A stretch of DNA of 64,000 nt from Plazaster borealis (Eukaryota; Echinodermata; Asteroidea; Forcipulatida; Labidiasteridae), in the NCBI GenBank assembly GCA_021014325.1, contig CM037474.1, forward strand, positions 4,158,488 to 4,222,487, given 5' to 3'. This document shows, one piece after another, positions 19,924-48,801 of the stretch. Position numbers and translations under genes: made by a program. The notes below the pieces were generated by a model. It saw only the letters and a program-made list of their open reading frames with translations, made no database searches and was not told where the DNA came from. Position 1 is the first letter of the stretch. Each line of letters begins with the position of its first letter.

Positions 19924-22397
19924 CTACGTCTGAGGAGTTATAGTCTTCAATATATATGAACTCAAACCGATTGATGCAACAAGTTGCTCAATATCTTCAT
20001 CCGTCAACAGGCATCGGTACATTTTGAGCTCCTGGAGGTGTTTGGCCATTTTCTTCAAATGAAACGCCCATAATGATACACGGACACTTAAAGCATAATT
20101 CATTGACAGATCCAGATGACGTATAGTGGACATGTCACCCACTGACTCAGCAATGGGCTCCATATCGCATTCTTGCAGATTACACCCTTTCAAAGTCAGT
20201 TTATTAAGGTGGTTCATTTTCTTCAAATGCAGAGCCCACGATGATGCATGGCCACCCAAAGAACAATTCTTTGTCAGATCCAGATGAACAAGAGTTGAAA
20301 TGTCACCCAGTGCATTAGCATCTGTACCTACCAATGAACAGTCTATCAAGTAAACATTTTGAAGGCAGTTCATTTTCCCCAATTGAGTACCCCAAGTTGA
20401 TCCGCGGCCACCCAATGCTGCATTTCCTGATACATCTAGATCAACCAGAGTGTCACACATTGACTCGGCAATGGGTGTCACATCTTGAGCTACCAGTGAG
20501 CAAAAACGTAAGCACAGCTTCTGGAGGCATTCCAATGTCTTCAATTGAGAAGCCAACAATGACACAGAGCCACCCAAGGCTTTATTCACTGAGAGGTCTA
20601 GCTCAGCCAATGTTGATGGACTTGCCAACGATGATAGGATTTCTTCAGTAATGGCAGTAGTTAATGAGCTCTTAATCATAGAAAGAGATTGTAAATTACT
20701 CATTAGCTTTAGCGACTTTGCCAAATCTTTTCCAAACCTCTGGAAGTTAACACGATCCATAACCAGTTTCGTAACCTTTGTGAAGTAATCATTTCCTCTA
20801 CTGAGGGCTGTTACACGCTTCAGAAAATAAAATAATGCGTTTGCACTATCATTTTTCCAATACGAAATGTTAATATCACCAGTCAGTACTGAACTGATAA
20901 CATTTGTGGGTGGCAGTTCATGTGACTGACTCTCAAAATAACAAATAATGGCAAGTTGCAAACTTATGTCTTCATGCACCTTCTTTAAAATAAGATTTGT
21001 ACATGTCCTATTGTCTCCACAACAAAATCGGATCAGATAATCATAACGAGAAAGACGGGAAGAACGAGGATGTGTCAAAATGGTACTCTCAGTTAACTCA
21101 GCACCAATCTGATCTAGGGTTCTGTTAAATTCTTCAGAATTTATCAAGCTTTGCCAGTACATCGCTGCGCAATACTCCAAAAACGTGTGGTGTATAAAAG
21201 ACACACGTTGATAAGTGTCAAGCCCATCGATAACCCTCTCGCTAGTGAGGACGCCTGCAATCATCGCTGCAGATAGTGCACTCTTTTCAAAGTCCTCTTC
21301 TTTAAAGGCAAATGACTCATCTTTAGAAAGTAGACGACCTAGAGCAACCTTTCCAATAGAAATCAAAATCTCATATATTGCATCGTCTTTGATGTCTCTT
21401 GTTTTTCTTTTGATTATGTATTTCAGTGTTTTGTTATACAGTTGTGTCATTGTGTCTGGGAGGGTGTTCTCTGCGTCCCATAGCAAACACATTAGCAACA
21501 GTAGCATGGGACTCTTTGCCAAACCAGACAAAGTATCTGATAGACCTATCTGCTCTATAAGCTTGCTAGCCTTGTCATGATCCTCAAGGAAGTATTTGTT
21601 CACATATTCCATTATATCCATATATGAAAACCCCTCAATTGTCACATGAGTATAGGGTTTTTCAACCAATGATGAGTTGACTAATTTGTCAAGGGGAGCA
21701 CGAGATGTAATAACTACCCAACATTCTGTACCCTGCTTTCGATTAAGAACATTGAGAGTCGAACCAAATGAAGATGTGTCAAGCGTAGCGATTTTAAATT
21801 CATCAAACCCATCCAAGAGAATCAATACTTTGTCTTGGTTGTTGTCAATAAACTCTTTCAAAGCAGATTGATCTACAGAGTCTTTGTCTAAGAGGTGATC
21901 AAAGATAGCATCCATTAAGTCTGAACTTTGTTTCAACGAAAGCATTTTTAGTACAAAAACAAGTTCGTACTTATTGAGCTTCTCACTGTAACTCAATGCC
22001 CAATCATAAGCGATTTTTTCAATTAGGGTTGTCTTGCCAATTCCTGCCGATCCGCTTATAACGACACGTTTGATTGGATTTCCCTCCCTTTGTGTCTTAA
22101 ATTGGAAAATCTCTTCATAAGATTGCATCTCACATTTGTCATTCCTTGACTCAAAGTAGGACCTTTCTTTATTCATTTGTTTGTATGATTCCATCTCATT
22201 TTCCTCTGTTTGAATCTTCTCTCTTGTGTCAACTTGTTCAACTAAATGTAGCTTAGTGTAGATTTTCATTATGTGTATCTTATCATCATCAACCCATGGG
22301 AGCATCTGTACATAGCTACCTGTAGTTGTGTACACTTTCTTCAATGCCTCTTTAGCCTTTTTTCCAACAGCTCGAACTTGATCGAGGTCTGGTGTTC
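19924..22397 (-). CDS. NLR-A exon 4: NACHT domain and leucine-rich repeats
   Basis: The acceptor TTCCAACAG precedes GAACACCAGACC at 22397; a split Gly codon joins it to exon 3. Numbered from the Leu codon at 22344, the exon shows the linker typical of invertebrate NLRs (LPWVDDDKIHIMKIYTKL), then Walker A GSAGIGKT (98-105), Walker B LILLDGFDEF (174-183) and the sensor-1 strand WVVITSR (209-215). Winged-helix/NACHT-associated helices follow, with SFIHHTFLEYCAAMYW near 390-405. From about 560, ribonuclease-inhibitor-like LRRs run to the end, in ~54-residue double units with the signature LxxLDLSxNxALGG … CxLxxxDxxPIAES. Four such units are visible, one fewer than in NLR-B. The C-terminal ~12 residues differ from NLR-B because of a small indel near the stop. 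Confidence 0.95.
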
Positions 22398-25300
22398 CTG
22401 TTGGAAAATATCAACAAAACCAAATTTTATCACTATTGCACCCACAACACAAGTGCTTTGAATATATATTATAATCACAAACTTGACGTTTCATTTGTGA
22501 ACCTTACATTAGTCACCTAATTCTGTAAAATCACCCAATTTTTCGACACAACCACACCAGCTGGTTTTTCACCTCTACGTTCAAGTGAAAACGTTTGGGG
22601 GAATGTTAAACCCACAGACATAGGTTTTGTTTCTTTGGAAAAATAACCAAACAATTGATGTTATGAGCTACTGTGTCTCAAGTAGAAGTAGTTTCAGTAA
22701 ATGTCTTTGGCATGACTGGTTCTTATTACGGTAAGTCAACACATATCACTAAATAAGTTGACTTGTGAGAATTTTTTGTTGTTATATCATGGCACTCGCT
22801 GAGCACCGTAGCTTCCATACTTAAAACCCCCTTTTTCCACTTGAACAACAATTTTATTGTCGACATTAAAAGCAGAAATTGGTATCAGGAGCCTTGGATT
22901 TAGGGTTCCTTTTTTTATACTCATAACCTCTGTGCTAATAATAATTTGTATAGTACCTGTTACATTCTGATTGCCTTTTTTGAATCACGGTTATTCCAGT
23001 AGAAGAGCCAAAGATGTCAGTACTTTGTTCCTAAATTGACAAGTTTTGTATATCAACCTGTGATTGGTTTGGACGCAACGCATATACAAGGGAAAGAATT
23101 GTATAAATACCTGTAATATTCTGAGGGACATGTGGATGCACGGTAATTCCAGTAACAGGGCCCAAAAAGACAGCACTACGGTCCCCAATTGACACTCGTT
23201 GTTGAAGATCAGGTTCAATATCTGGTGACATAAATCTTCCGTTTAGGTTCACATTCAAGGGAAAGACACTCATAAATTTGTTTAATTAAGTATTAATAAG
23301 CGTGTTCCAGCTCTTATACAACACTCAAAAATAATAATTTCCTACTATTAAGTAGGATACCAATCACTATCAGTATTTGAGGGCATTCGTGACTTAAAAT
23401 GTGCGTGATACTTTCACGTCAATTCCCGAATATTGACACCACCCTTATGACAATTTTATTCACAATTGACACACTGTGGACACACTGTGGACACACTATG
23501 GACACACTGTGGACACACTGTGGATACACAGAGGACAATCAGTCGACACACTGTGGACACACATAGGACACACTGAGGACACAGTGTGGTCACACTGTGG
23601 TCACACTGTGGGGACACTATGACATTGTACACCACGCATGCATTAACAATATTCAAATTATATAAAATGAACTATTTAACATGTTTTTATTCATGAAAAT
23701 TGAGTAATCGTAATTATTGCAAAACTTGTTTCGTATTTTATGGACAAAACAGCTAAAGTAATTGTTCTCATTTGTCTAAAATCCAAAATTACAAATTTGT
23801 AATTTTTAAAATTAATAGTAATTTATGCACAATAATTTCACAACCATAACTTAATGAGCGCACGAATGAGGGCGCCTTAAATGGGATCCCTGTAGTACCT
23901 AAAAGTAACAGCAGTAAAGTGGTAAGTCTATGCTTGCGTACTGGTGAGTACATAGTTGTGTAATTGTAATACTCGAATGATTGTGTTTAATTGTAATGTA
24001 ATGCTGTTGTCATTGATTACTCCCAATTTGCAATACAAATGCGATACTGGATTTTAAATATTGTGTCATGGGCACACTATGGCAACACTGTGTTTTCTAT
24101 GCGGTCACACTGTGGTGACACTGTGATCTCTATATGGCCACACTATAATGGTAACACTGTGTTTTCTATGCGGTCACATTGTGGTGACACCGTGATGGCC
24201 ACACTATAATGGTAACACTGTGTTTTCTATATGGTCACACTGTGGTGACACTGTGATCTCTACATGGCCACACTATAATGGCAACACTGTGTTTTCTATG
24301 CGGTCACATTGTGGTGACACTGTGATCTCTATATGGCCACACTATAATGGTAACACTGTGTTTTCTATATGGTCACACTGTGGTGACACTGTGATCTCTA
24401 TATGGCCACACTATAATGGTAACGCTGTGTTTTCTATGTGGTCACACTGTGGTGACACTGTGATTTATATATGGGCACACTATGGTAACACTGTGTTTTT
24501 TATGTGGTCACACTGTGGTGACGCTGTGATTTATATATGGGGACACTATAATGGTAACACTGTGTTTTCTATGTGGTCACACTGTGGTGACACTGTGATT
24601 TATATATGGCCACACTATAATGGTAACACTGTGTTTTCTATGTGGTCACACTGTGGTGACACTGTGATTTATATATGGCCACACTATGGTAACACTGTGT
24701 TTTCTATGTGGTCACACTGGTGACGCTGTGATCTCTATATGGCCACACTGTGACGACTCTATGTTCACAATGTTATGACAAATTCAAAATTCATAGTGTC
24801 ACACACAGAGAACACAGTGTGGTCACAGTGTGACCACTGACTGGTTTACACAGATGGTCACTTCACATACAGAAGACCCACAACTGTGGTGAATGGGGGA
24901 AATTTTTAAGGGCATCATAAACTTCATCTTTGACGTCAAAGTTCACGCAAAGTTGCCAAACATTGTCCCACGTCATTAAAATTGACGTTTATAGTTTCCT
25001 TTTCTTGATTTTGCAACCTTGCTTGGATGTGACATCATCAAAAATGTACTTAGATAAAACATTGGAAAATTCTTAACTTTTTTTTATTGTGATCATTAAC
25101 ATCCAATTGTTGAGAATGTTTTTTGAATTAATTTAAAGTACAATTTCAGTCAAGATTAATTGTTAAATTACAATTAGGTCCATACGCCTACCTGTGTTTT
25201 CCGGAGATGGTAACACCGTTTGCTCCCCTTTTAATTAAAAAACACAAATACAAATATTATAAGTAATAACATTCTAGCATCAACAAATTTAAGCATCAGG

Positions 25301-26902
25301 TGCTTGCGTTCTACAAGCATTTTTCCCCACTCAAAAATGCGTGTTTTCAAATCGACATATAAAATTGCAGCAAATTTACAAAATGTATATTTTTTTTATT
25401 AGGCAACCTATGGAAATGGTAATTATATAAAAATGTATTTAACAACTTATATATAAAAACATGTTTTCAGTTCCAAACTGGAGTTTCACCTTTCGTAAAG
25501 TTTATACCAACACCATCCTTTCAGAGATACACTTCCGAATAAAAACTTTTAAGAAAAAGTTGTTGGGGTTTTTAATTTTGAGATCTCCAAACCTCATTGC
25601 TTATTTCGATTGTGGATTATTTGAACATTCATTTTTATTTTGTGTTAAAATAACTTTAGGTGAATTGACTACAGGAAGAAAAAAAATATATTTGAATGCA
25701 TCCAGCAAATTCTCATGATCAAATTTTGCATGAAGTATGATTTCACACTTGGTCTTATTGTCAAGTCTTCCAAACTTCTAATCGAATAAGATTCTTGGTC
25801 TGAACTAGTCCAAGAATAAATATTTTTCCTCAGATAACGAGTTTCAGTGGAGTTTCCAACACTTCTCTCAAATGTAAATAAACTTATTTACCGTTGTATC
25901 TCCGCCAAACGCACAGAAAGCTCACTGTAAAAAAATGAAATGGTTTCGAAGCTGTAAAACGATGAGGCCCAAATACTGCAGTCATATTTTTATTTAAAGA
26001 GCTAATTCATGTTGGTAAAAGCGGGTTTGTATTTACTCGAGGAAAGTATGGCACATTTAATTTTTTTGAACAGGGACAGTGAATTTGTTGAGTTGTATTC
26101 TAAAAGACCCATGAACTTGTTTACTCAAAATGTAAAGCCGACTCAATGATACCTAACGTATTTTGGTTATGTATCATTGTTAAAGGAACGTTACAGAACT
26201 GGTAATTAAAATTTTCTTTAAGATTACAGACTTACATAAAACTTACACGGTCTAATGATGATGATAGTAGAAAACATCCCTAGAAATATTTCTGTCTGAA
26301 ATGCCATATTTGACGAGAAATAAATAAAACTAATTTCCGATTAGAGTTTATCGCTCATGAGCGTTTTATTCATGCATTGTATAACACATGCAAATGTGTA
26401 ATCGTTTTTTCACTATTTTCTCGTAACCCAGATGGCAGATCTATCTCAAACTTCTACAGGTTTGTCAGTTTATGTATATGGTGGATTATATAAAGTGCTT
26501 ACACTGCCAGCAACTGTTTTGTTAGCAAAAACCAGTTCTGTAATGTTCCTTTAAATGTGGGTCACCATGTCCGACACGGTTGTGAACAAGTACTTAGGAG
26601 TGCTTTTTTGGTGGTGGGGGGGGGGGGGGTACACAAGCTGCTTAATTTGTATAACTTCCTAACCTTGGAGCGGATGTATCGTAAACATCTACTATAAAGG
26701 CGTATTGTTTGTCGATTTCGTTGAATGTATGAAAGAGAGAAAAAACGGATCACTCACATAACATTGCTACAATCGTACCAATCATTCCGAAAATAATGCC
26801 TACTACTGTACTATAGCTCCAACCAAGTCCTCCTGTCGTAGCAGTTGTTATTGACACTGTTGTGCCATGTAGGAAAGTTGTGCCCTCTGCTAATGCCGCC
26901 AT
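19924..26902 (-). CDS. NLR-A: NACHT-LRR receptor with N-terminal membrane segment and RHIM-like motif (four coding exons)
   Basis: Gene model from splice signals: exon 1 26902-26758, exon 2 25227-25192, exon 3 23221-23111, exon 4 22397-19924. Every intron is GT–AG (donors GTGAGT, GTAGGC, GTATTT) and phase 1, and all codons join in frame, giving about 921 aa. In order: Thr-rich N-terminus, hydrophobic segment (about 31-48), short acidic/Pro linker (49-60), amyloid-like motif (about 68-95), linker helices, NACHT ATPase (P-loop about 213-220) and LRRs to the C-terminus. NLRs are intracellular sensors that oligomerise through NACHT and signal through their N-terminus. The family role is established; the ligand and the output of this N-terminus are unknown. 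The start ATG has context AAAATGG. All frames are open, so the gene looks functional. Its sister is NLR-B, about 14 kb away in the same orientation. Confidence 0.85.
22398..23110 (-). other. NLR-A intron 3 with a dead duplicate of the motif exon
   Basis: Apart from the pseudo-exon described at 22957-23065, the intron has a ~95-bp segment (about 22425-22520, including CACAACACAAGTGCTTTGAA) that NLR-C keeps and NLR-B has lost. No other feature is seen. Confidence 0.7.
22957..23065 (-). pseudogene. Degenerate second copy of the RHIM-like exon, in NLR-A intron 3
   Basis: Read on the minus strand, the segment aligns with exon 3: …PNQSQVDIQNLSI, then an in-frame TAG, then EQSTDIFGSSTGITVIQK, then a one-base insertion before …QNVTG. 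The splice donor (AACAG|GTACT) survives. The same TAG at the same codon is present in NLR-B (36724-36840), so the exon died before the 13-kb duplication. It shows that this gene family once carried two tandem motif exons. Confidence 0.75.
23111..23221 (-). CDS. NLR-A exon 3: RHIM/amyloid-like motif exon (short form)
   Basis: Bounded by acceptor TATGTCACCAG and donor ACAG|GTATTT; 111 bp, phase 1 at both ends. It encodes DIEPDLQQRVSIGDRSAVFL and then GPVTGITV…PQNITG. The pattern [VM]SIG[DG]xxxxxxLGxxTGxTV is shared by all three copies. It resembles RHIM-type and other amyloid signalling motifs in its Ile-Gly core, polar turn and beta-prone hydrophobic alternation. NLR-A lacks a 23-residue Gln/Ser/Pro-rich linker found in NLR-C and nearly complete in NLR-B, consistent with an in-frame 69-bp deletion. 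That it is an exon is well supported by splice sites and conservation; its function is inference. Confidence 0.75.
23461..23620. repeat. 11-bp minisatellite (GTGGACACACT) in NLR-A intron 2
   Basis: Tandem units of GTGGACACACT with variants (GTGGTCACACT, GTGGATACACA). The expanded equivalent is in NLR-B intron 2 (37500-37740). Because three units make 33 bp, both strands show fake Cys/Val/Ser-rich open frames. Confidence 0.85.
24060..24765. repeat. 69-bp minisatellite in NLR-A intron 2, about 10 units
   Basis: The unit combines ATAATGGTAACACTGTGTTT, CTATGTGGTCACACTGTGGT and GACACTGTGAT; some units are 66 bp for lack of AAT. Unit length is a multiple of three, so an open frame of 167 codons runs through the plus strand, antisense to the NLR transcript. 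GTCAC and GTGAC arms within each unit could form small hairpins. NLR-B has about 16 units. Confidence 0.9.
25192..25227 (-). CDS. NLR-A exon 2: 36-bp linker exon
   Basis: The acceptor TTTTAATTAAAAG and donor ACACAG|GTAGGC bound 36 bp. Spliced in frame it gives WEQTVLPSPENT, joining the hydrophobic segment to the motif exon. The NLR-B version is 54 bp with an internal insertion (WEQRPEDEQTVLPSPENT). NLR-C has an unrelated 48-bp basic exon at this position. So small an exon is supported mainly by phase, conservation and splice signals in both copies. Confidence 0.65.
25450..26750 (-). other. NLR-A intron 1 (25228-26757), interior
   Basis: Unique sequence shared with NLR-B and, in diverged form, NLR-C, plus a MITE at 26180-26555. 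A plus-strand frame of 85 codons (25461-25718) is also open in NLR-B but broken in NLR-C; it has no coding character. Confidence 0.6.
26180..26555. repeat. MITE, AAAGGAACGTTACAGAACTGG family, in NLR-A intron 1
   Basis: The ends TTAAAGGAACGTTACAGAAC and GTTCTGTAATGTTCCTTTAA are inverted repeats. Also present in NLR-B (40703-41050, right end damaged) and absent from NLR-C. A further copy lies at 48432-48801. It has no coding capacity. Confidence 0.85.
26758..26902 (-). CDS. NLR-A exon 1: start codon and N-terminal hydrophobic segment
   Basis: The start ATG is at 26902 and the donor TTAT|GTGAGT follows at 26757. It encodes MAALAEGTTFLHGTTVSITT and then, after a Gly-rich turn, YSTVVGIIFGMIGTIVAML. 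The last ~18 residues are hydrophobic with Gly at 35, 39 and 42, a glycine-zipper-like spacing. The preceding 30 residues are Thr-rich and have one acidic and no basic residue. A polypyrimidine tract plus TTGTAG lies 18 bp upstream of the ATG, so a non-coding exon precedes it (see 27863). The segment could be a membrane anchor or a membrane-inserting helix. A cleaved signal peptide is less likely given the long polar start. Confidence 0.7.
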
Positions 26903-27862
26903 TTTATGAGTGTTGTTCTACAAGAAGAGAGATTAAGTGGTGAGATTTGTATGTGTTCTACCCATTTTCATATTATTGCTCGCACCTAGGATATCTACGG
27001 TTTTTCCTGGAAGGACATAAAATACTCAAATATTCAAGGAAAATGTTACAACATTTCCCCATAGTCGTGACTTAACGTCAAATTTCATGTCTGCGTCATT
27101 TCCCGGTCGCAAATGTACCAGAAATATTTTCTTAGTAAGCTGTGTTGTCTGCTGGGGAGCGGGGTACCATTTGACCATGCCTCGTGACTTTGACTCCTCA
27201 TCTCCCACGTGTCTCGTGAATGGGAACCATGGGTAATCCGAAACGGATCCAAACTACGTTTCCCTGGCTGTATCCTTTTGGGATCACGAAAGCTAAACAC
27301 AAACATTGAGGTGTGACATCACATATGCTCGGACCTTACCTACCTAGCTTACTGAAAAAAATATTCATGGCAGACGTGAATGTTCGCATGCAGGGAAAAG
27401 TCACAGACATGAAAATTTGACATCAAAACTATTCAAAACTTGGGGGGGGGGTTGCTTCATGAATATTGTCGTCAATATTTAAGTCGTTGATGTTCGTTCA
27501 GGCCAACTATAGACTTACTGGTAATTTGGGGGATAAATACATTATTTTGGGTGGTTATTTTAATGTATCGAACCATTCATTCGTGCATTTTATTCAATCT
27601 CATTTGGGGGCGAGCGATGTGAGTGGATGGGGGGGGGCTTCCCCCTCTTCTCCCCTCTGGTTGCGCCACTGCTTGTAGCTGATGCATGGACAGCGGGTTG
27701 TGATATTAATATTGATAATAAGTACCGCTAGTCGATTAATCTTCTTGCTTTTGATACCTGGGAAAACATTATTATTTTTGGAAGGAACCAAGAAAAGTAC
27801 AAACCAGAAGGGGCGTCAAAGGATGGGGAAAGAAAGGGGCAATGGTATCAAGTGTTACTTAC

Positions 27863-27960
27863 CAGAGACCTGTTGATGCCTAGTGTAGTACAGACTGCAG
27901 ATAACTTGAACCAGATCAAACTTCAATAAGGACAAGGTGAAAGATGGTAGAAAATCAAGC
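27863..27960 (-). promoter_or_regulatory. Probable non-coding first exon and promoter side of NLR-A
   Basis: On the minus strand, CAACAGGTCTCTG|GTAAGTAA is a near-perfect splice donor (exon end 27863). It pairs with the acceptor TCTTCTTGTAG just before the start codon at 26902. The same donor exists in NLR-B (exon end 42310) and is deleted from NLR-C. The transcription start is not visible; the 3' boundary given is approximate. I see no convincing TATA box. Confidence 0.55.
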
Positions 27961-27963
27961 TTT

Positions 27964-28825
27964 TCCCCGATTCGGGATTTCAAATAGGCCTATCAGACAA
28001 GAAATTAGAGCATTGAATACAAAAATGCACTAAAGTTTGCCAACACATTTTTGTAACAATCGTCGTTAGATAGGTAAGAATCACTCAATGTATCAACTAG
28101 CTTTTAGTAGGCCCACACAAAATGCCTATACGTAATAACCCGTGTGTTAAAACTGATGGAGGGGCGTTGTCTCGTTCTGGGTTTCCCAAGCAATTCATGT
28201 CACCTGAGCAGCTGTATCGATCATGTGATACCAATCAACCAATCAGTGTGTATAGTTTTTGTGCGGCATTTTCCATACTCTTGTGTATTAATCATGTGAT
28301 GTTTATACCTGAATTTTGACTGTTCAAGCAGAACATTATGCTGAGGTACAAAGGGAGGAATCTGGCTTGTGTATTGGTATGAGGCCGCGGTCAACACCAT
28401 CAAAATGTGGCTATAGAAAACAGCTTTTGTGATACATGATTGGGAATTGGGTAAACTTTGGCTATTATAGCAAACAAAACCTGTTGAATTCCGAATATGA
28501 CTGTTCCCACTTTCAAAAGTGCACACACAGGGGTGATATTAGACTTTCCCCAGTCTCCACATAGAGTACAGCGTAAATGTAGCTTGAAATTGAATTGTGT
28601 GACACTGTTAGTGAATTGTGGGTGTTTTTGTTAATTCCATGAACAGAAAAGATCTCGATGAATTCAACCCACTGCAATTTAATTTTTTTGTTTAAGTCTG
28701 GCAACACTCCAGAGATAAAAGTAGGCCTCATTTCCTCTTCCGAAGGTGACATTTTCCACAATGTGTTCATCGTATATGAAACACATCAATTACATTTTTT
28801 TTGAATAAAAATAATAAAATAATGA
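27964..28825 (-). other. Upstream region of NLR-A, conserved in copy 2
   Basis: Nearly identical to 42411-43267. It should contain the promoter. A minus-strand frame of 101 codons (28221-28526) is open in both copies but begins with GTG, lacks splice context and gives no recognisable protein, so it is not called. Confidence 0.5.
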
Positions 28826-28828
28826 ACA

Positions 28829-28836
28829 GAAATAAG

Positions 28837-28867
<31 letters not shown>

Positions 28868-28915
28868 GTAAATAAGTAAATAAATAAGTAAATAAATAAA
28901 TAAATAAGTAAATAC
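28829..28915 (+). repeat. AAAT/AAGT microsatellite
   Basis: Units of AAAT with interspersed AAGT run for about 85 bp right at the end of duplication copy 1. It lies next to the breakpoint where copy 1 ends and the LINE fragment begins. Confidence 0.9.
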
Positions 28916-28919
28916 ATCA

Positions 28920-30225: not shown

Positions 30226-30239
30226 ATAAACAACAGCTA

Positions 30240-33200
30240 ACACCATTGAGTTCGAACATTAAGTTGGTTCACTATTTTATTCTTGAAATATGAGAGAGTT
30301 GGGCATTAAAATTAATTACATCATTACAATGATATCACCAAGCTGCAATGTGAAGCGTCCAGTTTTCCATTCTGGTTATTACTAAACTTAGGTTCACAAC
30401 ACAGCGCGCTACAAGGAGTTTCGATCGATAAGGCTATACTTTCACAACATCAGGTCAAGCGATCGGCATTATTCGCAGCGTACAAACAGAGTCCTCGCTA
30501 GTCGAGGAAACGAACTGTTTTTCGAGTGAAGGAAACAATCAGATCTGTAATGGCCCTACAGCCAAATATCTTTCTCATGACATACTCTGACTGTGTGCCG
30601 AGTTCCATGCATGTATCACCAAAGGCACAATTCCCCCATCTGCCCTGTTATTTCGAAATGTCCTCAAAAACTTGTTCGTGTAAGTGTGAAACCTCTCCAC
30701 GGACTCGTTATGAAAACCCCTCCCCAAGGCAAACTTTCCTACGTAATGGGAGTTGATGTGAAGAAATAAACTGGTGTATATTCTTCACACCCAGTGATTA
30801 CTATGATATGTTATGCAGTTACAAAAATATTGCAACAGTTCAATACTTATATTAACAATCAATAATCATTAGGACCAACAACGTCCTATTAAGATTTGAT
30901 TTCAAGTTCACCTTTTATGTTTTAAAGCCCTGGTTTGTTGATATTATAATAAAGTTGGTTTATCAACTCTGTTCATAACTGCAATCATGTTTTTGAGCTG
31001 TTTTGAAATTTTCTTGTCAAATATAAGAAAGACATTATGTCCCAATTTGAGCTTTGGGTGGATTATGACCAAAATATTTACAGATTCCGACTCACAAACA
31101 ATTTAAAAACACCGTATAGTTATGTAAATCTTCATCTCATTTACATGTTTAGCATGCATATTCAGACTTTGTAAACAAATCGCCTCGTTTTACACAAAAA
31201 GTCACCTTGTGCATTCCAGGGCACTCCATGGCAGGCAAAATACTACACAGATCTTATGGGAAATATGCCCCTTTGTATCATAGTTTTAGTACTAATGTTG
31301 TTTTATTTCCGTTGTCCTATTTATTCACTCATCAGTGATTCTACTGCTATCTCTGGGCTCCTGTTACCAAATTCCATTATATAAACAACACATGAGAAAC
31401 TATACGAGTACATCGATACAACTAAGAATTATAATATTTAGATTCAGAAATATTGCACGGAAGATAATAGTACAAATAAAAGTGATAATGACAAGAATTA
31501 CAAGAGTTACAAATTATTGTAAATACCAAACAGCTGTACCACTTCCTGCTCTGTACATATTGCGCCTTCAGGAAGTCCTGGCTTTATGGTTATTTTTTAA
31601 ACATATGTCCTGAGTAATAATTCAAGAAAGTTGGTTTGTATACTTTATTTACATACATGAACGTGATAGAGATCCATATTGGAGTCGTGTCATAACGCGT
31701 ACTACATGCGTTACATTTCAAATAATATCAAGGTCTGTACGATTTTGTACGGATACTTTTTTTGGGGATCCTGAATTTCATGATATTAAATCATAATGGC
31801 GTTGAGTTTGACCTTTTGGCTAACGAAAAATGAATGTGTGTGTGGAAATGTACAGACCCGTTTATTGTTGACATCCAATGCTTCGTGTTTCAAATTTCCC
31901 TCTGAGAGAGTATCAAATACAATTCTCTCACTTCACCAGTTTAACGTGAGGTTGGAAACTTGTATTGTTTTCCCACTTTCATGAGGACTATATCTGTTTT
32001 GGAAAATGAGTGCATCACCAAACTGTATTTGAACTTAAAACCCATCCTTAAAGATTGCCTGGAACTGATTTGTATTTAATTGCCTCGTGTGTCGTGACCC
32101 TTTAGACCTCTTGCCCATGGTCTGATATTGTGAGAGTCAAACTGCATGTAAATGAATGAGAATGTGACTCCTAAAATGGTGCAACCAAGATTTATCTTGC
32201 GTGATGACGTCAGGTGGATTTGTGGATCCATGATACCTAATTTCTAAAGGCATTGAGTGTTGCGTAGCGACGTACTGGCATTAGCGCCGGTGTGGCAGTA
32301 GATTCTGTGTGGCAGTAGATTATGTGGTGTCCCCCCCCACCACACCCGAAGATTCTGCCCCCCCCCCATAGCGCCCTCTTTTGAATCATCCTCCTGGGGG
32401 ACAGTTTTCCCTATGACACCGGCTTGGATGTGTCAACTTCTCGGAATGATTAACGACTACGGACATATAACTATAAAATACCAAATTAACTGTAATTGCA
32501 TTTCTTGAAAGACTTATGGACGAAAGGATGAACTTCAGTGAACTTATGAACTTCCTGTATTAAACCGATTATTATTTCGATTGCTGCAATCGATATAACA
32601 CCGTTATGAACGTGAATAAAGTCCCTGACAAACCATTCTGCGTTGTTGTCATTTAAACGGACCTAAATAAAATGATGAAAGTTTCATAGGCTGGTGGTTG
32701 TATGGTGTGTTTATTTAGAACTAGAGGATGGGATAAATAATACTCTTCCAAAATCCAATGATGTAAGTTCCATTAAAGATGCTAGGTCCAAATTTTGGCT
32801 GATTTGACCTGACAATTTAAGTTTAAATTTTAAATAGCTATTTTGATAGATTCGAGAAAGTTATAAGCTTTCCTTTGAGGAATTTTAAAGACGAATCTGC
32901 GAATGATAAGTGATAGTTAATTAACAAATAAAAATCAACTATTGTCCCTGGCATATGCGAAATGTTTTGTATGTTTTTTGTTTGTTTACAGCATTATCTG
33001 TCAAAATTTGTTGGAGGGAAATATTAATAAGAATAATTTATTCGGCGAAATTAAGGCTGTGCAACTTTGAGTGTTAATTATTTGGTGTGTTTCTGGCTGC
33101 AACTATTACGTCAAATATTTAGTTTTGTTGAACATGATTCTGCTATAGCATGTTAATTATAACTTGAAACATTTGTAACTGAATTAAGTATACGGAAAGT

Positions 33201-33621
33201 GTTTCATTTGTTTTAAACATAAGAGCCCAGGAGAGTAAACTATAAAGTCACCAAGGCTTTGGATCAAACTAATGATTCAGATCGACCAGAAGGAGGATAA
33301 CACTCAGTGACAGGGTTCATACTTGAGCAGTTTTCTCAAGTCCAGCTTGTGGAAGATACTGCATAAGACTTTATGATACATCGTTGGTTTTGGGAGTAAA
33401 TTCATTTCCATCCAGCAGTTTCCAATAAACATAATGAGTTTCATTTGCCTCAAATAAAGGAAGTACACAGTTGTGCAGAGAAATCACAGACTCAATGGCA
33501 TGACAGATTCACATCTGTGAGTAATTCGGAATGAGTTTCATTTGCTACGAATGAGGAGTCTACAATGTCAAGGCTTCATCCAAACTATTGGAAATGGAAT
33601 TATCAATCTACGTCTGACGAG
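30240..33621. other. 3' flank of NLR-B
   Basis: Corresponds to 15300-19923 minus the transposon. Contains the ruined MITE-like GCCGGTGT…ACACCGGC element (32286-32424) and C/G homopolymer runs (32331-32370). The words CCAAATATCTTTCTCATGAC and GTGCATTCCAGGGCACTCCA (here near 30565 and 31210) also occur in related form at 57940 and 60890, so part of this flank is itself a dispersed repeat. No other gene is seen. Confidence 0.6.
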
Positions 33622-36251
33622 TTATGACGCTTCGAAATACCGGGTCTTCAATATAGGCGAATTCGAACCGATTACTGCATTAATAATTAGCTCATCTTCA
33701 TCCGTCAACAAGCATCGGTACATTTTGAGCTCCTTAAGGTGTTTGGTCATTTTCTTCAAATGAAACGCCCATAATGATGCACGGCCACTTAAAGCATAAT
33801 TCATTGACAGATCCAGATGACGTAGAGTCGACATGTCACTCACTGACTCAGCAATGGGCTCCATATCGCAACCTTTAAGATTGCACCCTTTCAAAGTCAG
33901 TTTCTTAAGGTGGTTCATTCTCTTCAAATGCTGAGCCCACAATGATGCACGGCGTCCCAAAGCACAATTCCCTGACAGATCCAGATATACCAGAGTGGGC
34001 ACTGACTCAGCAATGGGCTCCATATCGCATTGTCTCAGATTACATATTACAAGTTTCAGCTCCTTAAGGTGGTTCATCCTCTTCAAATGCAGAGCCCACG
34101 ATGATGCATGGCCACCCAAAGCACAATTCCTTGTCAGATCCAGATGAACAAGAGTTGAAATGTCACTCAGTGCCACAACATCTGTGTCTTCCAGTGAACA
34201 GTCTACCAAGTAAATGTTTTGAAGGCATTCCATTTTCCCCAATTGAGGACCCAAAATTGATGCACAGCCACCCAATTTTGTATTTCCTGATACATCTAGA
34301 ACAACCAGAGTGTCACCCACTGACTCGGCAATGGGTGGCACATCTTGAGCTACCAGTGAGCAATGAGCCAAGTACAGCTCCTTGAGGCACTGTAATTTCT
34401 TCAATTGAGGAGCCAACAATGACACATGGCCACCCAAGGTTTGATTCCGTGAGAGGTTTATCTCAGCCAATGTTGATGGACTTGCCAATGATGATAGGAT
34501 TGTGGAAGTTTGGGCAGTAGTTAATGAGCTGTGTTCCAGAGAAAGAGATTGTAAATTACTCATTAGCTTTAGCGATTTTGCCAAATCTTCTCCATACCTC
34601 TGGGAGTTAACACGATCCATAACCAGTTTCGTAACCTCTGTGAAGGAATCATTTCCTCTCCCTAGGGCTGTCACACGCTTCAGAAAATAAAATAATGCGT
34701 TTGCACTATCATTTTTCCAATACGAAATGTTAATATCACCAGTCAGTACTGAACTGATAACATTTGTGGGTGGCAGTTCCTGTGACTGACTCTCAAAATA
34801 ACAAATAATGGCAAGTTGCAAACTCATGTCTTGATGACCCTTTTTTAAAATAAGATTTGTACATGCCTCGTTGTCTCCACAACAAAATCGGAGCAGATAA
34901 TCATAACGAGACAGGTGAGCATGAGGTGTCAACGCGGTACTCTCAGTTAACTCAATATCAATCTGATTTAGGATTCCGTTGAACTTTTCAGTATTTATCA
35001 AGCTTTGCCAGTACATCGCTGCGCAATACTCCAAAAGCGTGTGGTGTATAAAAGACACACGTTGATAAGTGTCAAGCCCATCTATGACCCTCTCGCTAGT
35101 GAGGACGCCTGCAATCATCGCTGCAGATAGTGCACTCTTTTCAAAGTCCTCTTCTCTAAAGGCAAATGACTGATCATTCGAAAGGAGAAGACCTAGAGCA
35201 ACCTTTCCAATAGAAATCAAAGTCTCAGATATTGCATCGTCTTTGATGTGTCTTGTTCTTCTTTTGAATATGTATTTCAGTGCTTTGTTATACAGTCTTG
35301 TCATTGTGTCTGGGAGGGTGTTCTCTGCGTCCCATAGCAAACACATCAGCAGCAGTAGCATGGGACTCTTTGCCAAATCAGACAAGGTATATGAGAGTTC
35401 TATCTGCTCTATAAGCTTGCTAGCCTTGTCATGATCCTTAGGGAAGAATTTGTTCACATAATCCTTTATATCCGTATCAGAAAACCCCTCAACTGCCACA
35501 TGAGTATAGGGCTTTTCAACCAATGATGAGTTGACTAATTTGTCAAGGGGAGGACGGGATGTAATAACTACCCAACATTCTGTGCCCTGCTTTCGATTAA
35601 GAACTTTGAGAATCGAACCAAATGAGGATGTGTCGATTGTAGCGATTTTAAATTCATCAAACCCATCCAAGAGAATCAATACTTTGTCTTGGTTGTTGTC
35701 AACAAACTCTTTCAAAGCAGATTGATCAACAGAGTCTTTGTCTAAGATGTGATCAAAGATAGCATCCACTAAGTCTGAACTTGGTTTCAATGAACGCATT
35801 TTTAGTTCAAAAACAAGTTCGTACTTATTGAGTGTCTCACTGTAACCCAATGCCCAATCATAAGCGATTTGTTCAATTAGGGTTGTCTTGCCAATTCCTG
35901 CCGATCCCCTTATAACGACACGTTTGATTGGATTTCCCTCCCTTTGTGTCTTAAATTGGAAAATCTCTTCATAAGATTGCATCTCACATTTGTCCTTCCT
36001 TGAAACAAAGTAGGACCTTTCTTCATTCATTTGTTGGTATGATTCCATCTCATTTTCCTCTGTTTGAATCTTCTCTCTTGTGTCAACTTGTTCAACTAAA
36101 TGTAGCTTAGTGTAGATTTTCATTATGTGTATCTTATCATCATCAACCCATGGGAGCATCTGTACATAGCTACCTGTAGTTGTGTACACTTTCTTCAATG
36201 CCTCTTTAGCCTTTTTTCCAACAGCTCGAACTTGATCGAGGTCTGGTGTTC
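33622..36251 (-). CDS. NLR-B exon 4: NACHT domain and leucine-rich repeats
   Basis: The acceptor AATTTTCCAACAG ends at 36252. The exon gives 875 residues after the split Gly: TPDLDQVRAVGKKAKEALKK, the linker, Walker A GSAGIGKT, Walker B LILLDGFDEF, WVVITSRPP and the NACHT-associated helices. Five LRR double units then carry LDLSxNxALG. The additional unit lies at about 33880-34040 and contains HLKRMNHLKKLTLKGCNL, most similar to its neighbour. The C-terminus (…ILKTRYFEAS) differs from NLR-A by a short insertion before the stop. The minus-strand reading continues 9 codons upstream of the acceptor only by chance. Confidence 0.95.
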
Positions 36252-39200
36252 CTGTTGGAAAATTACAACAAACCAAATTTTATCACTATTATAATATTCT
36301 TTAAAATCACCAACTTTTTCGAGACAACCACACCTGCTGGTTTTTCACCCCAAGTGAAAATGTTTGGGGGAATGTTAAACCCACAGACCTAGGTTTGGTT
36401 TCTTTGGAAAAATAACCAAAAACTTGATGTTATGAGCTACTGTGTCTCAAGTAGAAGTAGTTTTAGTAAATCTCTTTGGCATGACTGGTTCTTATCACGA
36501 TAAGTCAACACATATCACTATATAAGTTGACTTGGTGAGAATTTTTTGTTGTTATATCATGGCACTCGCTGAGCACCGTAGCTTCCATACTTAAAACCCC
36601 TTTTCCCACTTGAACAACAATTTTATTGTCGACATTAAAAGCAGTAAGTGTATCAGGAGCCTTGGATTTAGGGTTCCTTTTTTTCACTCATAACCTCTGT
36701 GCTAATAATAATTTGTATAGTACCTGTTACATTCTGATTGCCTTTTTGAACCGCGGTGAATTCAGTAGAAGAGCCAAAGATGACAGTACTTTGTTCCTAA
36801 ATTGACACGTTTTGTATATCAACCTGTGATTGGTTTGGACGCAACGCATGTACAAGGGAAAGAATTGTATCAAATACCTGTAACATTCTGAATGACATTT
36901 TGATTTACGGTATTTCCAGTAGCAGGGCCCAAGAAGAAAGTGTTATGATTCCCTCCAATTGACATCTTTTGGACTTCAACCTGTGGTTGGTTTGGACTGA
37001 CTGTATCAACACTAGAAGATTGCTGGCTGGGTTGGTCTTCACGTTCAATATCTGGTGACATAAATCTTCCGTTTAGGTTCACATTCAAGAGAATATGACA
37101 CTCATAAATTTGTTTAATTAAGTATTAATAAGCGTGTTCCAGCTCTTATACAACACTCAAAAATAATAATTTCCTACTATTAAGTAGGATACCAATCACT
37201 ATCAGTATTTGAGGGCATTCGTGACTTAAAATGTGCGTGATACTTGCACGTCAATGCCCGAATATCGACACCACCCTTATGACAATTTACTCCAGTCACC
37301 ACAGCAAACACACTGTGAACACACACGGTCTCAAACAGCTCTGTGTTGCATACAATCTGTGGACATTCCTTTGTTGTTTTCACTTAAGACAAAACACGTT
37401 CTTCAACACTGGTGAAAACACAGCGTGGACGTGTCCAAATAGTGTTTCAAAACCCTGCCTTGTGTTGACCTATTTTGTTCTCAGGTCCACACTTCGTATG
37501 TAATGCTTGCCCACTGTGGACGACACACTGTGATCACGCTGTGGAAACACTGTGGACACACTGTGGACACCCTATGGACACACAGAGGACACACTATTGA
37601 CACACTGTGGACACACTGTGGACATACAGTGGACACACTGTGGATACACAGAGGACACTCAGTGGACACACTGTGGACACACATATGACACACTGAGGAC
37701 ACAGTGTGGACACACTGTGGTCACACTGTGGGGACACTATGATATTGTACACCACGCATATGCATTAAATTGAAAATTGAAAATTAGAAAATTGAGTAAT
37801 CGTAATTATTGCAAAACTTGTTTCGTATTTTATTGACAAAACAGCTAAAGTAATTGTTCTCATTTGTCTAAAATCCAAAATTACAAATTTGTAATATTAA
37901 AAATAATTTATGCACAACCATAACATAATTTCACAACCATAACTTAATGAGCGCACGAATGAGGGCGCCTTAAATGGGATCCCTGTAGTACCTAAAAGTA
38001 ACAGCAGTAAAGTGGTAAGTCTATGCTTGCGTACTGGTGAGTACATAGTTGTGTAAGTGTAAAACTCGAAAGATTGTGTTTAATTGTCATGTAATGGTGT
38101 TGTCATTGATTACTCCCAATTTGCAATACAAATGCGATACTGGATTTTAAATATTGTGCCATGGGCACACTATGGCAACACTGTGTTTTCTATGCGGTCA
38201 CATTGTGGTGACACTGTGATCTCTATATGGCCACACTATAATGGTAACACTGCGTTTTCTATATGGTCACACTGTGGTGACACTGTGATCTCTATATGAC
38301 CACACTATAATGGTAACACTGTGTTCTCTATGTGGTCACACTGTGGTGACACTGTGATTTATATATGGCCACACTATAATGGTAACACTGTGTTTTCTAT
38401 GTGGTCACACTGTGGTGACACTGTGATTTATATATGGGCACACTATGGTAACACTGTGTTTTTTATGTGGTCACACTGTGGTGACACTGTGATTTATATA
38501 TGGGCACACTATAATGGTAACACTGTGTTTTCTATGTGGTCACACTGTGGTGACACTGTGATTTATATATGGGCACACTATAATGGTAACACTGTGTTTT
38601 CTATGTGGTCACACTGTGGTGACACTGTGATTTATATATGGCCACACTATAATGGTAACGCTGTGTTTTCTATGTGGTCACACTGTGGTGACACTGTGAT
38701 CTCTATATGGCCACACTATAATGGTAACACTGCGTTTTCTATATGGTCACACTGTGGTGACACTGTGATCTCTATATGGCCACACTATGGTAACACTGTG
38801 TTCTCTATGTGGTCACACTGTGGTGACACTGTGATTTATATATGGCCACACTATAATGGTAACACTGTGTTTTCTATGTGGTCACACTGTGGTGACGCTG
38901 TGATCTCTATATGGCCACACTATGGTAACGCTGTGTTTTCTATGTGGTCACACTGTGGTGACACTGTGATTTATATATGGGCACACTATGGTAACACTGT
39001 GTTTTTTATGTGGTCACACTGTGGTGACGCTGTGATTCATATATGGGCACACTATAATGGTAACACTGTGTTTTCTATGTGGTGACACTGTGGTGACACT
39101 GTGATCTCTATATGGCCACACTATATTGGTAACACTGTGTTTTCTATGTGGTCACACTGTGGTGACACTGTGATTTATATATGGCCACACTATGGTAACA

Positions 39201-41390
39201 CTGTGTTTTCTATGTGGTCACACTGTGGTGACGCTGTGATCTCTATAATGGCCACACTGTGACGACTCTATGTTCACAATGTTATGACAAATTCAAAATT
39301 CATAGTGTCACACACAGAGAACACAGTGTGGTCACAGTGTGACCACTGACTGGTTTACACAGATGGTCACTTCACATACAGAAGACCCACAACTGTGGTG
39401 ACTGGGGGAAATTTTTAAGGGCATCATAAACTTCATCTTTGACGTCAAAGTTCACGCAAAGTTGCCAAACATTGTCCCACGTCATTAAAATTGACGTTTA
39501 TAGTTTCCTTTTCTTGATTTTGCGACCTTGCTTGGACGTAACATCATCAAAAATGTACTTAGATAAAACATTGGAAAATTCTTAACTTTTTTCTTATTGT
39601 GATCATCAACATCCAATTGTTGAGAATGTTTTTTTAAATAATTTAAAGTACAATTTCAGTCAAGATTAATTGTTAAATCACAATTAGGTCCATACGCCTA
39701 CCTGTGTTTTCCGGAGATGGTAACACCGTTTGCTCATCCTCAGGCCTTTGCTCCCCTTTAATTAAAAAACACAAATACAAATATTATAAATAATAACATT
39801 CTAGCATCAACAAATTTAAGCATCAGGTGCTTGCGTTCTTTATGCATTTTGCCCCACTCAAAAATGCGTGTTTTCAAATCGACATATAAAATTGCAGCAA
39901 TTTTATATTTTGTTTATTAGGCAACCTATGGAAATGTTAATTATATATAAATGTATTTAACAACTTATATATAAAAACATGTTTTCAGTTCCAAACTGGA
40001 GTTTCACCTTTCGTAAAGTTTATACTAACACTATCCTTTCAGAGATACACTTCCGAATAAAAACTTTTAAGAAAAAGTTGTTGGGGTTTTTAAGTTTGAG
40101 ATCTCCAAACCTCATTGCTTATTTCGATTGTGGGTTATTTGAACATTCATTTTTATTTTGTGTTAAAATAACTTTAACTTTAGGTGAATTGACTACAGGA
40201 AGAAAAACAATTATTTGAATGGCATCCAGCAAATTCTCATGATCAAATTTTGCATGAAGTATGATTTCACACTTGGTCTTATTGTCAAGTCTTCCAAACT
40301 TCTAATCGAATCAGATTCTTGGTCTGAACTAGTCCAAGAATAAATATTTTTCCTCAGATCACGAGTTTCAGTGGAGTTTCCAACACTTCTCTCAAATGTA
40401 AATAAACTTATTTACCGTTGCATCTCCGCCAAACGCACAGAAAGCTCACTGTAAAAAAATGAAATGGTTTCGAAGCTGTAAAACGATGAGGCCCAAATAC
40501 TGCAGTCATATTTTTATTTAAAGAGCTAATTCATGTTGGTAAAAGCGGGTTTGTATTTACTCGATGAAAGTATGGCACATTTAATTTTTTTGAACAGGGA
40601 CAGTGAATTTGTTGAGTTGTATTCTAAAAGACCCATGAACTTGTTTACTCAAAATGTAAAGCCGACTCAGTGATACCTAACGTATTTTGGTTATGTATCA
40701 TTGTTAAAGGAACGTTACAGAACTGGTAATTAATTTGTTTTTTAAGACTACAGACTTACATAAAACTTACACGGTCTAATGATGATGATAGTAGAAAACA
40801 TCCCTAGAAATATTTTTGTCTGAAATGCCATATTTGACGAGAAATAAATAAAACTAATTTCCGATTGGAGTTTATCGCTCGTGAGCGTTTTATTCATGCA
40901 TTGTATAACACATGCAAATGTGTAATCGTTTTTTTCACTATTTTCTCGTGACGCAGATGGCCGATCGATCTCAAACTTCTACAGGTTTGTCAGTTTATGT
41001 ATATGGTGGATTATATAAAGTGCTTACACTGCCAGCAAATGTTCCTTTATATGGGCCACCATGTCCGACACGGTTGTGAACAAGTACTTAGGAGTGCTTT
41101 TTTGGTGGTGGGGGGGGGGTACACAAGCTGCTTAATTTGTATAACTTCCTAACCTTGGAGCGGATGTATCGTAAACATCTACTACAAAGGCGTATTGCTT
41201 GTCGATTTCGTTGAATGTATGAAAGAGAAAAAAACCCGGATCACTCACAGATTGCTACAATCGTGCCAATCACACCGAAAATAATGCCTACTACTGCACT
41301 ATAGCTCAAACCAAGTCCTCCTGTCGTAGCAGTTGTTGTTGACACTGTTGTGCCATGTAGGAAAGTTGTGCCATCTGCTAATGCCGCCAT
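33622..41390 (-). CDS. NLR-B: NACHT-LRR receptor with N-terminal membrane segment and RHIM-like motif (four coding exons)
   Basis: Exon 1 41390-41249, exon 2 39755-39702, exon 3 37051-36878, exon 4 36251-33622. All introns are GT–AG and phase 1, and the predicted product is about 999 aa. The domain order is that of NLR-A, but linkers are longer: exon 2 has 18 residues, and exon 3 keeps a Gln/Ser-rich spacer before the motif. The LRR region has five double units rather than four. Every frame is open and the catalytic NACHT motifs are intact, so it is probably functional. The paralogues are nearly identical over the NACHT and differ mainly in LRRs and N-terminal linkers, the pattern expected of receptors that diversify recognition and signalling ends. 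No regulatory site beyond the shared 5' exon is identified. Confidence 0.85.
36252..36877 (-). other. NLR-B intron 3 with the dead second motif exon
   Basis: Contains 36724-36840, the counterpart of the NLR-A pseudo-exon: PNQSQVDIQNVSI, TAG stop, EQSTVIFGSSTEFTAVQK, then GNQNVTG. Unlike NLR-A it has no one-base insertion, but it shares the stop. The intron also lacks a ~95-bp segment that NLR-A and NLR-C have. Confidence 0.7.
36878..37051 (-). CDS. NLR-B exon 3: RHIM/amyloid-like motif exon (long form)
   Basis: 174 bp, acceptor TATGTCACCAG, donor ACAG|GTATTTGA, phase 1-1. It encodes a polar spacer (DIEREDQPSQQSSSVDTVSP…QVEVQK) followed by MSIGGNHNTFFLGPATGNTV and NQNVIQNVTG. IGGNHN is the copy closest to a RHIM core (Ile-Gly, two variable residues, Asn/His, hydrophobic). 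Asn- and Gly-rich turns between short beta-prone stretches suggest an amyloid fold. The motif is conserved in three gene copies while the spacer varies, supporting selection on the motif. The domain name is my inference. Confidence 0.75.
37300..37745. repeat. 11-bp minisatellite (GTGGACACACT) in NLR-B intron 2
   Basis: About 20 units from 37505 to 37740, preceded by a diverged ACACACTGTGAACACAC-like zone. Larger than its NLR-A counterpart (23461-23620). It produces spurious Cys- or His-rich open frames on both strands. Confidence 0.85.
38155..39270. repeat. 69-bp minisatellite in NLR-B intron 2, about 16 units
   Basis: Same unit as at 24060-24765, expanded from about 10 to about 16 copies, with mixed 69- and 66-bp variants (ATATGGCCACACTATAATGG versus ATATGGGCACACTATGG). 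A 254-codon plus-strand frame (38321-39085) exists only because unit length is divisible by three. The order of variant units differs from that in copy 1. Confidence 0.9.
39702..39755 (-). CDS. NLR-B exon 2: 54-bp linker exon
   Basis: The acceptor TTTAATTAAAG and donor ACACAG|GTAGGC bound a sequence encoding WEQRPEDEQTVLPSPENT. It has six more codons than NLR-A exon 2, from a partly repeated GAGCAAA word (WEQ…DEQ). Phase 1 at both ends. Confidence 0.65.
40703..41050. repeat. MITE in NLR-B intron 1, right end damaged
   Basis: Orthologous to the NLR-A copy at 26180-26555. About 30 bp before the right terminus, including most of the inverted repeat, are deleted (GCCAGCAAATGTTCCTTTAT). Confidence 0.85.
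41249..41390 (-). CDS. NLR-B exon 1: start codon and N-terminal hydrophobic segment
   Basis: ATG at 41390; donor ATCT|GTGAGT. It encodes MAALADGTTFLHGTTVSTTT followed by a Gly turn and YSAVVGIIFGVIGTIVAI. It is one codon shorter than NLR-A at the 3' end. The hydrophobic stretch and Gly spacing (G35, G39, G42) are kept despite substitutions (Met to Val, Trp to Leu), which argues for constraint on hydrophobicity rather than on exact residues. Confidence 0.7.
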
Positions 41391-48431: not shown

Positions 48432-48801
48432 TTAAAGGAACATTACAGAATTGGTTTTTGCTAACAAAACAGTTGCTGGCAGTGTAAGCACTTTATGTTA
48501 TCCACCATATACATAAACTGACAAACCTGTAAAAGTTTGAGATCGATCGGCCATCTGGGTCACGAGAAAATAGTGAAAAACCGATAACACATTTGCATGT
48601 GTTATACAATGCATGAGTAAAACGCTCATGGGCGATAAACTCGGAAATTATTTTTATTTATTTCTCATCAAATATGGCATTTCAGACAGAATTATTTCTA
48701 GGGATGTTTTCTACTATCATCATCATTAGACCGTGTCAGTTTTATGTAAATCTGTGATCTTAAAGAAAATTTTAATTGCCAGTTCTGTAACGTTCCTTTA
48801 A
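48432..48801. repeat. MITE, AAAGGAACGTTACAGAACTGG family
   Basis: Full-length relative of the intron-1 MITEs of NLR-A and NLR-B, with ends TTAAAGGAACATTACAGAAT and CAGTTCTGTAACGTTCCTTT. It lies in inverted internal orientation relative to those copies. Confidence 0.85.

Follow-up and report, generated by a model that had tools for sequence, protein, structure and literature searches.

Within a 64-kb window of the genome of the sea star Plazaster borealis (C20:4158488-4222487, the whole stretch of DNA analyzed here; the genome searched comprises 560 Mb in 717 contigs), two tandem genes, A and B, encode NLR proteins with a predicted N-terminal membrane helix followed by a short motif that recurs in other sea-star NLRs. 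The reading that we favor, and to which we give about an even chance, is that A and B specify membrane-held receptors with a single helix, in which the motif, situated between the anchor and the NACHT-LRR body, likely lets activated receptors stack.

Gene A (26902-19924, minus strand) and gene B (41390-33622, minus strand) each comprise five predicted exons, with every intron in phase 1, and have open spliced frames of 932 codons and 1010 codons, respectively. In both genes, an ATG exon is followed by a 33-nt exon, a linker exon, a motif exon, and an exon containing the pre-NACHT region, NACHT, helical domains, and LRR. All exon joins in A, in B, and in two further copies, pseudogene C and paralogue D, are predicted from the DNA, using open frames, splice borders, and phase. 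A preliminary description of the window had both genes splicing in frame from the ATG exon through the motif exon into NACHT and LRR; its coordinates and open frames hold, and exon 2, of 33 nt, had been missed. The features of the two genes are as follows:

26902-26758, minus strand: gene A exon 1, with start codon, Thr-rich head, and first half of the transmembrane (TM) helix; donor GTGAGT, phase 1, open frame; recurs in B, C, and D
25924-25892, minus strand: gene A exon 2, 33 nt (LSFLCVWRRYN), remainder of the helix and two Arg; AG/GT borders, phase 1 to 1; equivalent in D
25227-25192, minus strand: gene A exon 3, short linker, predicted exon model
23221-23111, minus strand: gene A exon 4, motif exon (VSIGDRSAVFLGPVTGITV); linker shorter than in B and C
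23072-22977, minus strand: second motif-like copy 3' of gene A exon 4, with in-frame TAG; likely a relic
22397-19924, minus strand: gene A exon 5, pre-NACHT region, NACHT (Pfam, 9.2e-24), helical domains, and LRR (models under cut-off)
41390-41249, minus strand: gene B exon 1, predicted exon model
40448-40416, minus strand: gene B exon 2, 33 nt (LSFLCVWRRCN), predicted exon model
39755-39702, minus strand: gene B exon 3, linker, predicted exon model
37051-36878, minus strand: gene B exon 4, motif exon (MSIGGNHNTFFLGPATGNTV), from the exon model and the motif query of the genome
36838-36722, minus strand: second motif-like copy 3' of gene B exon 4, with in-frame TAG; likely a relic
36251-33622, minus strand: gene B exon 5, pre-NACHT region, NACHT (Pfam, 1.7e-25), helical domains, and LRR (over cut-off); modeled with AlphaFold2 and compared with Foldseek

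The exon-5 sequences identify A and B as NLR (NACHT-LRR) genes, with the C-terminal LRR and the modeled NLR fold documented for B. Specifically, a NACHT domain with an intact P-loop exceeds the Pfam cut-off in both genes, and LRR_4, LRR_8, and LRR_1 exceed it in B only and fall below it in A. The AlphaFold2 model of gene B exon 5 has a mean predicted local distance difference test score (pLDDT) of 86.1 and a predicted template-modeling score (pTM) of 0.80; a Foldseek search with this model returned NLRC4 as the top match (1.6e-29), with NLRP3 a close second, and a PDB sequence search with the NLR body matched NLRC4 at 6.6e-17. The proteins closest to gene B are NLRs of Asterias rubens and A. 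amurensis, followed by those of Acanthaster and Patiria.

The ratio of nonsynonymous to synonymous substitution rates (dN/dS) between A and B is 0.60 over 543 codons from the pre-NACHT region to the helical part. Over 278 LRR codons it is 1.28 (an estimate without a significance test), as expected if the LRR diversifies. The value of 0.60 and the open frames of 932 and 1010 codons argue against the view that A and B are decaying duplicates without function, which we consider improbable and which would draw on the pseudogenization of C, on the relic second motif copies, and on an N-terminal A-B dN/dS of 1.04 over 70 codons.

Neither the N-terminal exons of B, taken together, nor the motif exons of A, B, and C match a death-fold domain (Death, CARD, DED, PYD, or TIR); they gave only sub-threshold matches to other families, and the N-terminal B exons gave no Pfam Ig match either. 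Of the 18 open reading frames (ORFs) of at least 55 aa that lie upstream of A and B, 10 were scanned and gave no Pfam match at E ≤ 0.5, a scan that small or multi-exon domains could escape. The earlier statement that a death-fold domain is missing therefore stands for these exons and ORFs.

The N-terminal exons of A and B encode a head of ~30 residues, a hydrophobic stretch of ~20 residues, and basic residues behind it. Exon 2 (LSFLCVWRR[YC]N in the two genes) completes one TM helix and adds basic residues: the maximal 19-residue Kyte-Doolittle mean is 2.59 in A and 2.72 in B with this exon, and 2.03 and 2.15 without it. Because exon 2 is 33 nt long, the frame is open with or without it; that it is a real exon is indicated by the higher hydropathy of the helix, by an equivalent exon in D, and by the uninterrupted passage from helix to basic residues in Asterias. 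In particular, paralogue D, on contig C11, shows an ATG exon, a short second exon (36 nt, LSFLCAWWRCKK, AG/GT borders), and a motif exon of its own, all in phase 1, with no exon 3 located, and in annotated Asterias proteins a similar helix continues directly into a basic stretch, for example P0005 ...FGILGFLYNWRRNRRED. Counted in the order A, B, C, and D, there are 0, 0, 0, and 1 Lys or Arg residues ahead of the helix and 2, 3, 6, and 3 in the 20 residues that follow it. A and B thus each contain a predicted transmembrane helix of the kind that defines a membrane-spanning NLR, and the predicted topology has the NLR body on the cytosolic side of the membrane and the head on the other.

The preliminary description had also proposed that this segment is a glycine zipper of the membrane-damaging type. 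The hydrophobic segment is confirmed, and the membrane-damaging role is not: the segment is predicted to form one full membrane-spanning helix, followed by basic residues, and is likely an anchor, rather than a membrane-damaging domain or pore. GxxxG (GIIFG) occurs in the helices of A, B, and C and would suit an effector whose glycine-spaced helix inserts or oligomerizes on activation and injures the membrane. It is absent from D, however, so that a glycine zipper is not a family feature, and we rejected a pore-forming glycine zipper on this ground. In addition, the hydrophobic helix is unbroken and most of the basic residues beside it fall on a single side, which is what a constitutive anchor would show, and a head of this kind persists in relatives that lack the motif; we therefore regard a membrane-damaging effector as very improbable.

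A comparable head (Thr-bearing, with [ST]GL, helix, and basic residues) was recognized by reading in 9 of 90 annotated related proteins, here given P numbers: Asterias P0003, P0004, P0005, P0008, and P0015; Patiria P0034, P0041, and P0046; and Acanthaster P0061. These nine NLRs share with A and B the head, helix, basic flank, and NACHT, and an LRR over cut-off in the four that were scanned (P0004, P0005, P0034, and P0061); they differ in having no motif in the annotated protein, and they bear automatic names such as NLRC4-like and NLRP-like. An N-glycosylation sequon is present in all nine heads (six identified by script, three by eye), consistent with their lying outside the cytosol. NLRs are usually pictured as soluble cytosolic sensors, a picture that would have to change if three sea-star genera have LRR-bearing NLRs with an N-terminal anchor, as predicted here. 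A query of the genome with the Asterias head at E ≤ 10 returned six places, namely A, B, an exon of locus L044 (C20:1172524), and C20:1163938, C22:4291109, and C22:4370260, the last three being head matches only. A hydropathy scan upstream of loci L042, L045, and L062 found no exon resembling the anchor head, only unlike hydrophobic ORFs.

The motif spans ~35 residues, [VM]SIG[DG]...[LM]GxxTGxT, with letters in A (VSIGDRSAVFLGPVTGITV) and B (MSIGGNHNTFFLGPATGNTV) as first described, and is shared with other sea-star NLRs, including ones with a ubiquitin-like domain; its wider form, by eye, is roughly [VI]x[IV]xGxxN[PV]xFxGPxxGxTFN. In A and B, it lies behind the helix and ahead of NACHT, ~100 residues from the latter. 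A seed profile of 13 motif copies, applied to the 90 related proteins and to 900 shuffled proteins, found 12 domains in the former and none in the latter at E ≤ 1, and all 12 domains precede the P-loop/NACHT region. Eight proteins are strong carriers (independent E-value (iE) ≤ 5e-17: P0006, P0007, P0012, P0013, P0014, P0017, P0020, and P0024) and four, all outside the seed, are weak carriers (0.007 to 0.6: P0027, P0028, P0029, and P0064). Five of the eight strong carriers (P0006, P0007, P0012, P0020, and P0024) were seed members, which leaves P0013, P0014, and P0017, all closely related to members of the seed, as the only strong hits independent of it.

Six of the eight strong carriers represent one kind of NLR, with a ubiquitin-like domain in the longer models (over the Pfam cut-off in P0007 and below it in P0006; precomputed for P0007 and P0013). 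These Asterias proteins (P0006, P0007, P0012, P0013, P0014, and P0017) have the same motif ahead of the pre-NACHT region as A and B, and differ from them in the ubiquitin-like domain and in having no hydrophobic segment in the first 80 residues. Asterias models run directly from the motif to the pre-NACHT region in P0006, P0014, and P0020, and with an extra segment in P0007 and P0012.

An iterated profile on N-terminal regions yielded 17 proteins with a readable motif, from Asterias, Acanthaster, and Patiria and with several kinds of N terminus. It used 74 of 79 proteins, P0080-P0090 being omitted as remote and five lacking an N-terminal region of more than 25 aa. Shuffled controls gave one match at E ≤ 0.02 among 1480 in round 1 and none in rounds 2-6, and any protein that entered the profile has an E-value inflated by that entry. 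Rounds 5-6 drifted into the pre-NACHT region, and the count was therefore limited to the 17 proteins in which the motif can be read.

The motif query of the genome returned 14 places: two each in A and B, one each in C, D, L018, and L023, two in L014/L042, two at C20:2.974M, and two weak ones, of which C20:30.919M is frameshifted and of the ubiquitin-like type and C22:4.285M is decayed, with stops. Ten of the 14 are in NLR loci or pseudogene C, and two are in a presumed NLR fragment. The query missed a known copy in L021/L047, which makes the census of 14 a lower bound. L047/L021 (C20:30.30M) is a motif-bearing NLR that matches the ubiquitin-like Asterias proteins P0006 and P0007 along the N terminus, and the tblastn match to the ubiquitin-like part crosses one stop.

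The place at C20:2.974M was considered as a motif carrier outside NLRs and rejected; it is treated as an NLR fragment, because it has exon 3 and motif exons, no recognizable anchor exon, and no NACHT in the 9 kb read. A gag-like ORF, recognized by eye, lies downstream of it.

The motif had initially been called RHIM-like, a label that the profile check and the core residues contradict. The published RHIM core is G-(I,V)-Q-(I,V)-G (PMC7885112) and its tetrad V/I-Q-V/I-G (PMC12119088). At the core position, all 16 motif copies (one of them a relic) have S and none has Q, and 12 of the 16 end in G. Pfam RHIM has no match at E ≤ 10 in seven fragments, and its five matches in the genome include none over cut-off, in a search whose control genomes were prokaryotic and thus provided no positive control. 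With the core Q absent, Pfam RHIM silent, and nothing over cut-off genome-wide, we rejected membership of the motif in RHIM. The motif resembles RHIM and the fungal PP motif in being a short, glycine-bearing, hydrophobic/polar motif in innate immunity or cell death, and differs from them in having S for Q (16 of 16) and in lacking the first G (PMC7885112, PMC12119088).

The evidence on amyloid formation by the motif is divided, with residue pattern, place, a disorder-like model, and an aggregation-prone heptad on one side and, on the other, the lack of a partner in searches of low sensitivity and a dN/dS near 1. In the AlphaFold2 model of P0024, block means stay below 30 over residues 1-90, which include the motif, a pattern that suits a disordered tail rather than a folded domain. 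In A and B, the motif holds the top aggregation-prone heptad outside the helix. A PDB profile search with the motif gave no match at E ≤ 10.

One form that amyloid formation might take is a true NLR-associated amyloid signaling motif of the fungal or bacterial type, whose cross-beta fold is copied onto a separate effector with the same motif. The amyloid motifs of fungal and bacterial NLRs are N-terminal, ahead of the nucleotide-binding domain, and pair with an effector that is as a rule the product of a collocated gene (PMC12261475, PMC7889193, PMC8086366); the sea-star motif precedes NACHT, but behind a helix and ~100 residues away, and no such effector was found here in searches of low sensitivity. 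The position ahead of NACHT, the alternation of hydrophobic and polar residues with G and N/S, the low model confidence of P0024, and a tetrad whose chief difference from the RHIM tetrad is S in place of Q would all suit such a mechanism. No effector with a matching motif was found in protein or genome searches, whose sensitivity was low, known copies being missed, and the 14 genome places are NLR loci, pseudogene C, a presumed NLR fragment, or frameshifted or decayed copies. In particular, a search with gene B residues 1-136 gave 370 candidates, none at E ≤ 10, and is uninformative because P0015, P0020, and P0024, which were within the length range, were also missed. A search with the P0014 motif gave five candidates and two matches, P0091 and P0092 only. 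These two predicted isoforms of Asterias amurensis have a motif-bearing NLR N terminus with zinc-finger sequence in place of NACHT, and represent a gene-model error or a real fusion; as the sole NACHT-less carriers in the protein search, and perhaps products of a faulty gene model, they count against the effector reading, which we rate as unlikely. Slightly less doubtful to us, and still speculative, is that sea stars possess an animal family of NLR-associated amyloid motifs distinct from RHIM, found here on an anchored NLR and seeding at the membrane a cross-beta stack that would recruit cytosolic NLRs with the same motif.

Both the anchor exon and the motif exon are present in A, B, and D, and also in pseudogene C; together with their separate occurrence elsewhere, this suggests that the two modules combine freely. 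Several observations nevertheless weigh against a membrane-held receptor that stacks through its motif. The heads of A, B, C, and D lack the sequon of the nine head-bearing relatives. Head and motif never occur together in the 90 annotated relatives (16 have hydrophobic N termini and 17 carry the motif, with no overlap), so that the motif exon may be skipped, and in-frame skipping could yield the form of the annotated Asterias anchor-NLRs. Pairwise dN/dS in the motif core is near 1 (0.31 to 2.66; 21 pairs from seven copies, 29 codons each), giving no sign of strong purifying selection among paralogues. The low model confidence of P0024 may also reflect a shallow alignment (18 rows), and other heptads outscore the motif in P0024, P0006, P0007, and P0038.

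Some of these points would be accounted for by a plain membrane-anchored NLR, in which the anchor works and the motif exon is mostly skipped or encodes an inert linker, a reading that we hold to be possible, if on the unlikely side. Annotated Asterias anchor-NLRs proceed from helix to basic linker to pre-NACHT region; the paralogue L044/L016 has an anchor exon, and no motif exon was found there; all introns are in phase 1, so that skipping keeps the frame; and a motif-core dN/dS near 1 would fit an inert segment. Against it, the motif exon of all four copies (A, B, C, and D) is open and flanked by good splice signals, while the second copies that follow it in A and B are interrupted by TAG, and annotated models of two Asterias species include the motif and lead on from it to the pre-NACHT region.

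In the favored reading, that of a membrane-held receptor stacking through the motif, the single predicted N-terminal helix would hold the receptor in the membrane, the LRR would sense a ligand or a disturbed host factor, and NACHT would assemble into a ring at the membrane, bringing the disordered motif tails close enough for beta-strand pairing. Such pairing would hold the complex together and would recruit other NLRs with the same motif, for example the ubiquitin-like ones. The nearest precedent for an output is the sea cucumber membrane NLR AjNLRC4, which has been linked to caspase-1 and MLKL-type lytic death, a path from membrane NLR through caspase and MLKL to lytic cell death (PMC11932488).

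AjNLRC4, of Apostichopus japonicus, has been located on the coelomocyte membrane by antibody; it resembles A and B in being an echinoderm NLR at the membrane with NACHT in the cytosol, and differs in having two TM segments, extracellular Ig domains, and no LRR, where A and B have one predicted helix, a ~30-residue head, an LRR, and the motif (PMC8699970). AjNLR-new is likewise an echinoderm membrane NLR, with two TM segments, a NACHT reported as extracellular, and an intracellular Ig domain (PMC13133943). The preliminary description knew of no animal NLR family with this exact order. Since membrane-spanning NLRs are known in sea cucumbers (PMC8699970), only the exact order of anchor, motif, NACHT, and LRR appears to be new; in the open-licence PMC literature, we found no report of a sea-star NLR that combines an N-terminal anchor with this motif. 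A motif that recurs in sea-star NLRs offers a concrete peptide for the question of NLR amyloid signaling in animals. Its setting is a group, the Ambulacraria, in which RIPK1 is reported to be without RHIM (PMC11507063), and in echinoderms no RIPK1 with both RHIM and death domain was found (PMC12119088).

The third copy in the window, C (46606-43124), contains all four N-terminal exons:

46606-46495, minus strand: pseudogene C exon 1, by sequence similarity to A and B
45818-45786, minus strand: pseudogene C exon 2, 33 nt, from the exon model
45092-45045, minus strand: pseudogene C exon 3, unlike its counterparts in A and B (identity 0.50 and 0.52)
44450-44271, minus strand: pseudogene C exon 4, motif exon, open, with a clear polypyrimidine acceptor
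43693-43124, minus strand: pseudogene C NACHT exon, acceptor lost; stops short after the P-loop

The acceptor of the C NACHT exon reads AACTG, versus AACAG in A and B. We classify C as a pseudogene on account of this lost acceptor and the truncation of the NACHT exon. In place of the remainder of that exon is a sequence (43124-43290) that resembles 28516-28785, upstream of gene A, and may therefore be a dispersed repeat that broke C.

Comparison of A and B over 19924-27010 and 33622-41498 shows introns that are 0.946-0.975 alike, with only 0.766 for motif exon 4 and 0.915 for exon 5; gene conversion or selection on coding parts could explain the higher similarity of the introns. A 69-bp minisatellite occupies part of intron 3 in both genes (24068-24749, 10 copies, in A; 38161-39258, 16 copies, in B) and accounts for over half of the difference in intron 3 length. 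At 48432-48801, the opposite strand carries a piece of NLR intron 1 with 93.9% identity to gene A. Exons of rhodopsin-family G protein-coupled receptors (Pfam 7tm_1) adjoin the NLR cluster at 54440-55195, 51763-52200, and 63054-63437, all on the minus strand.

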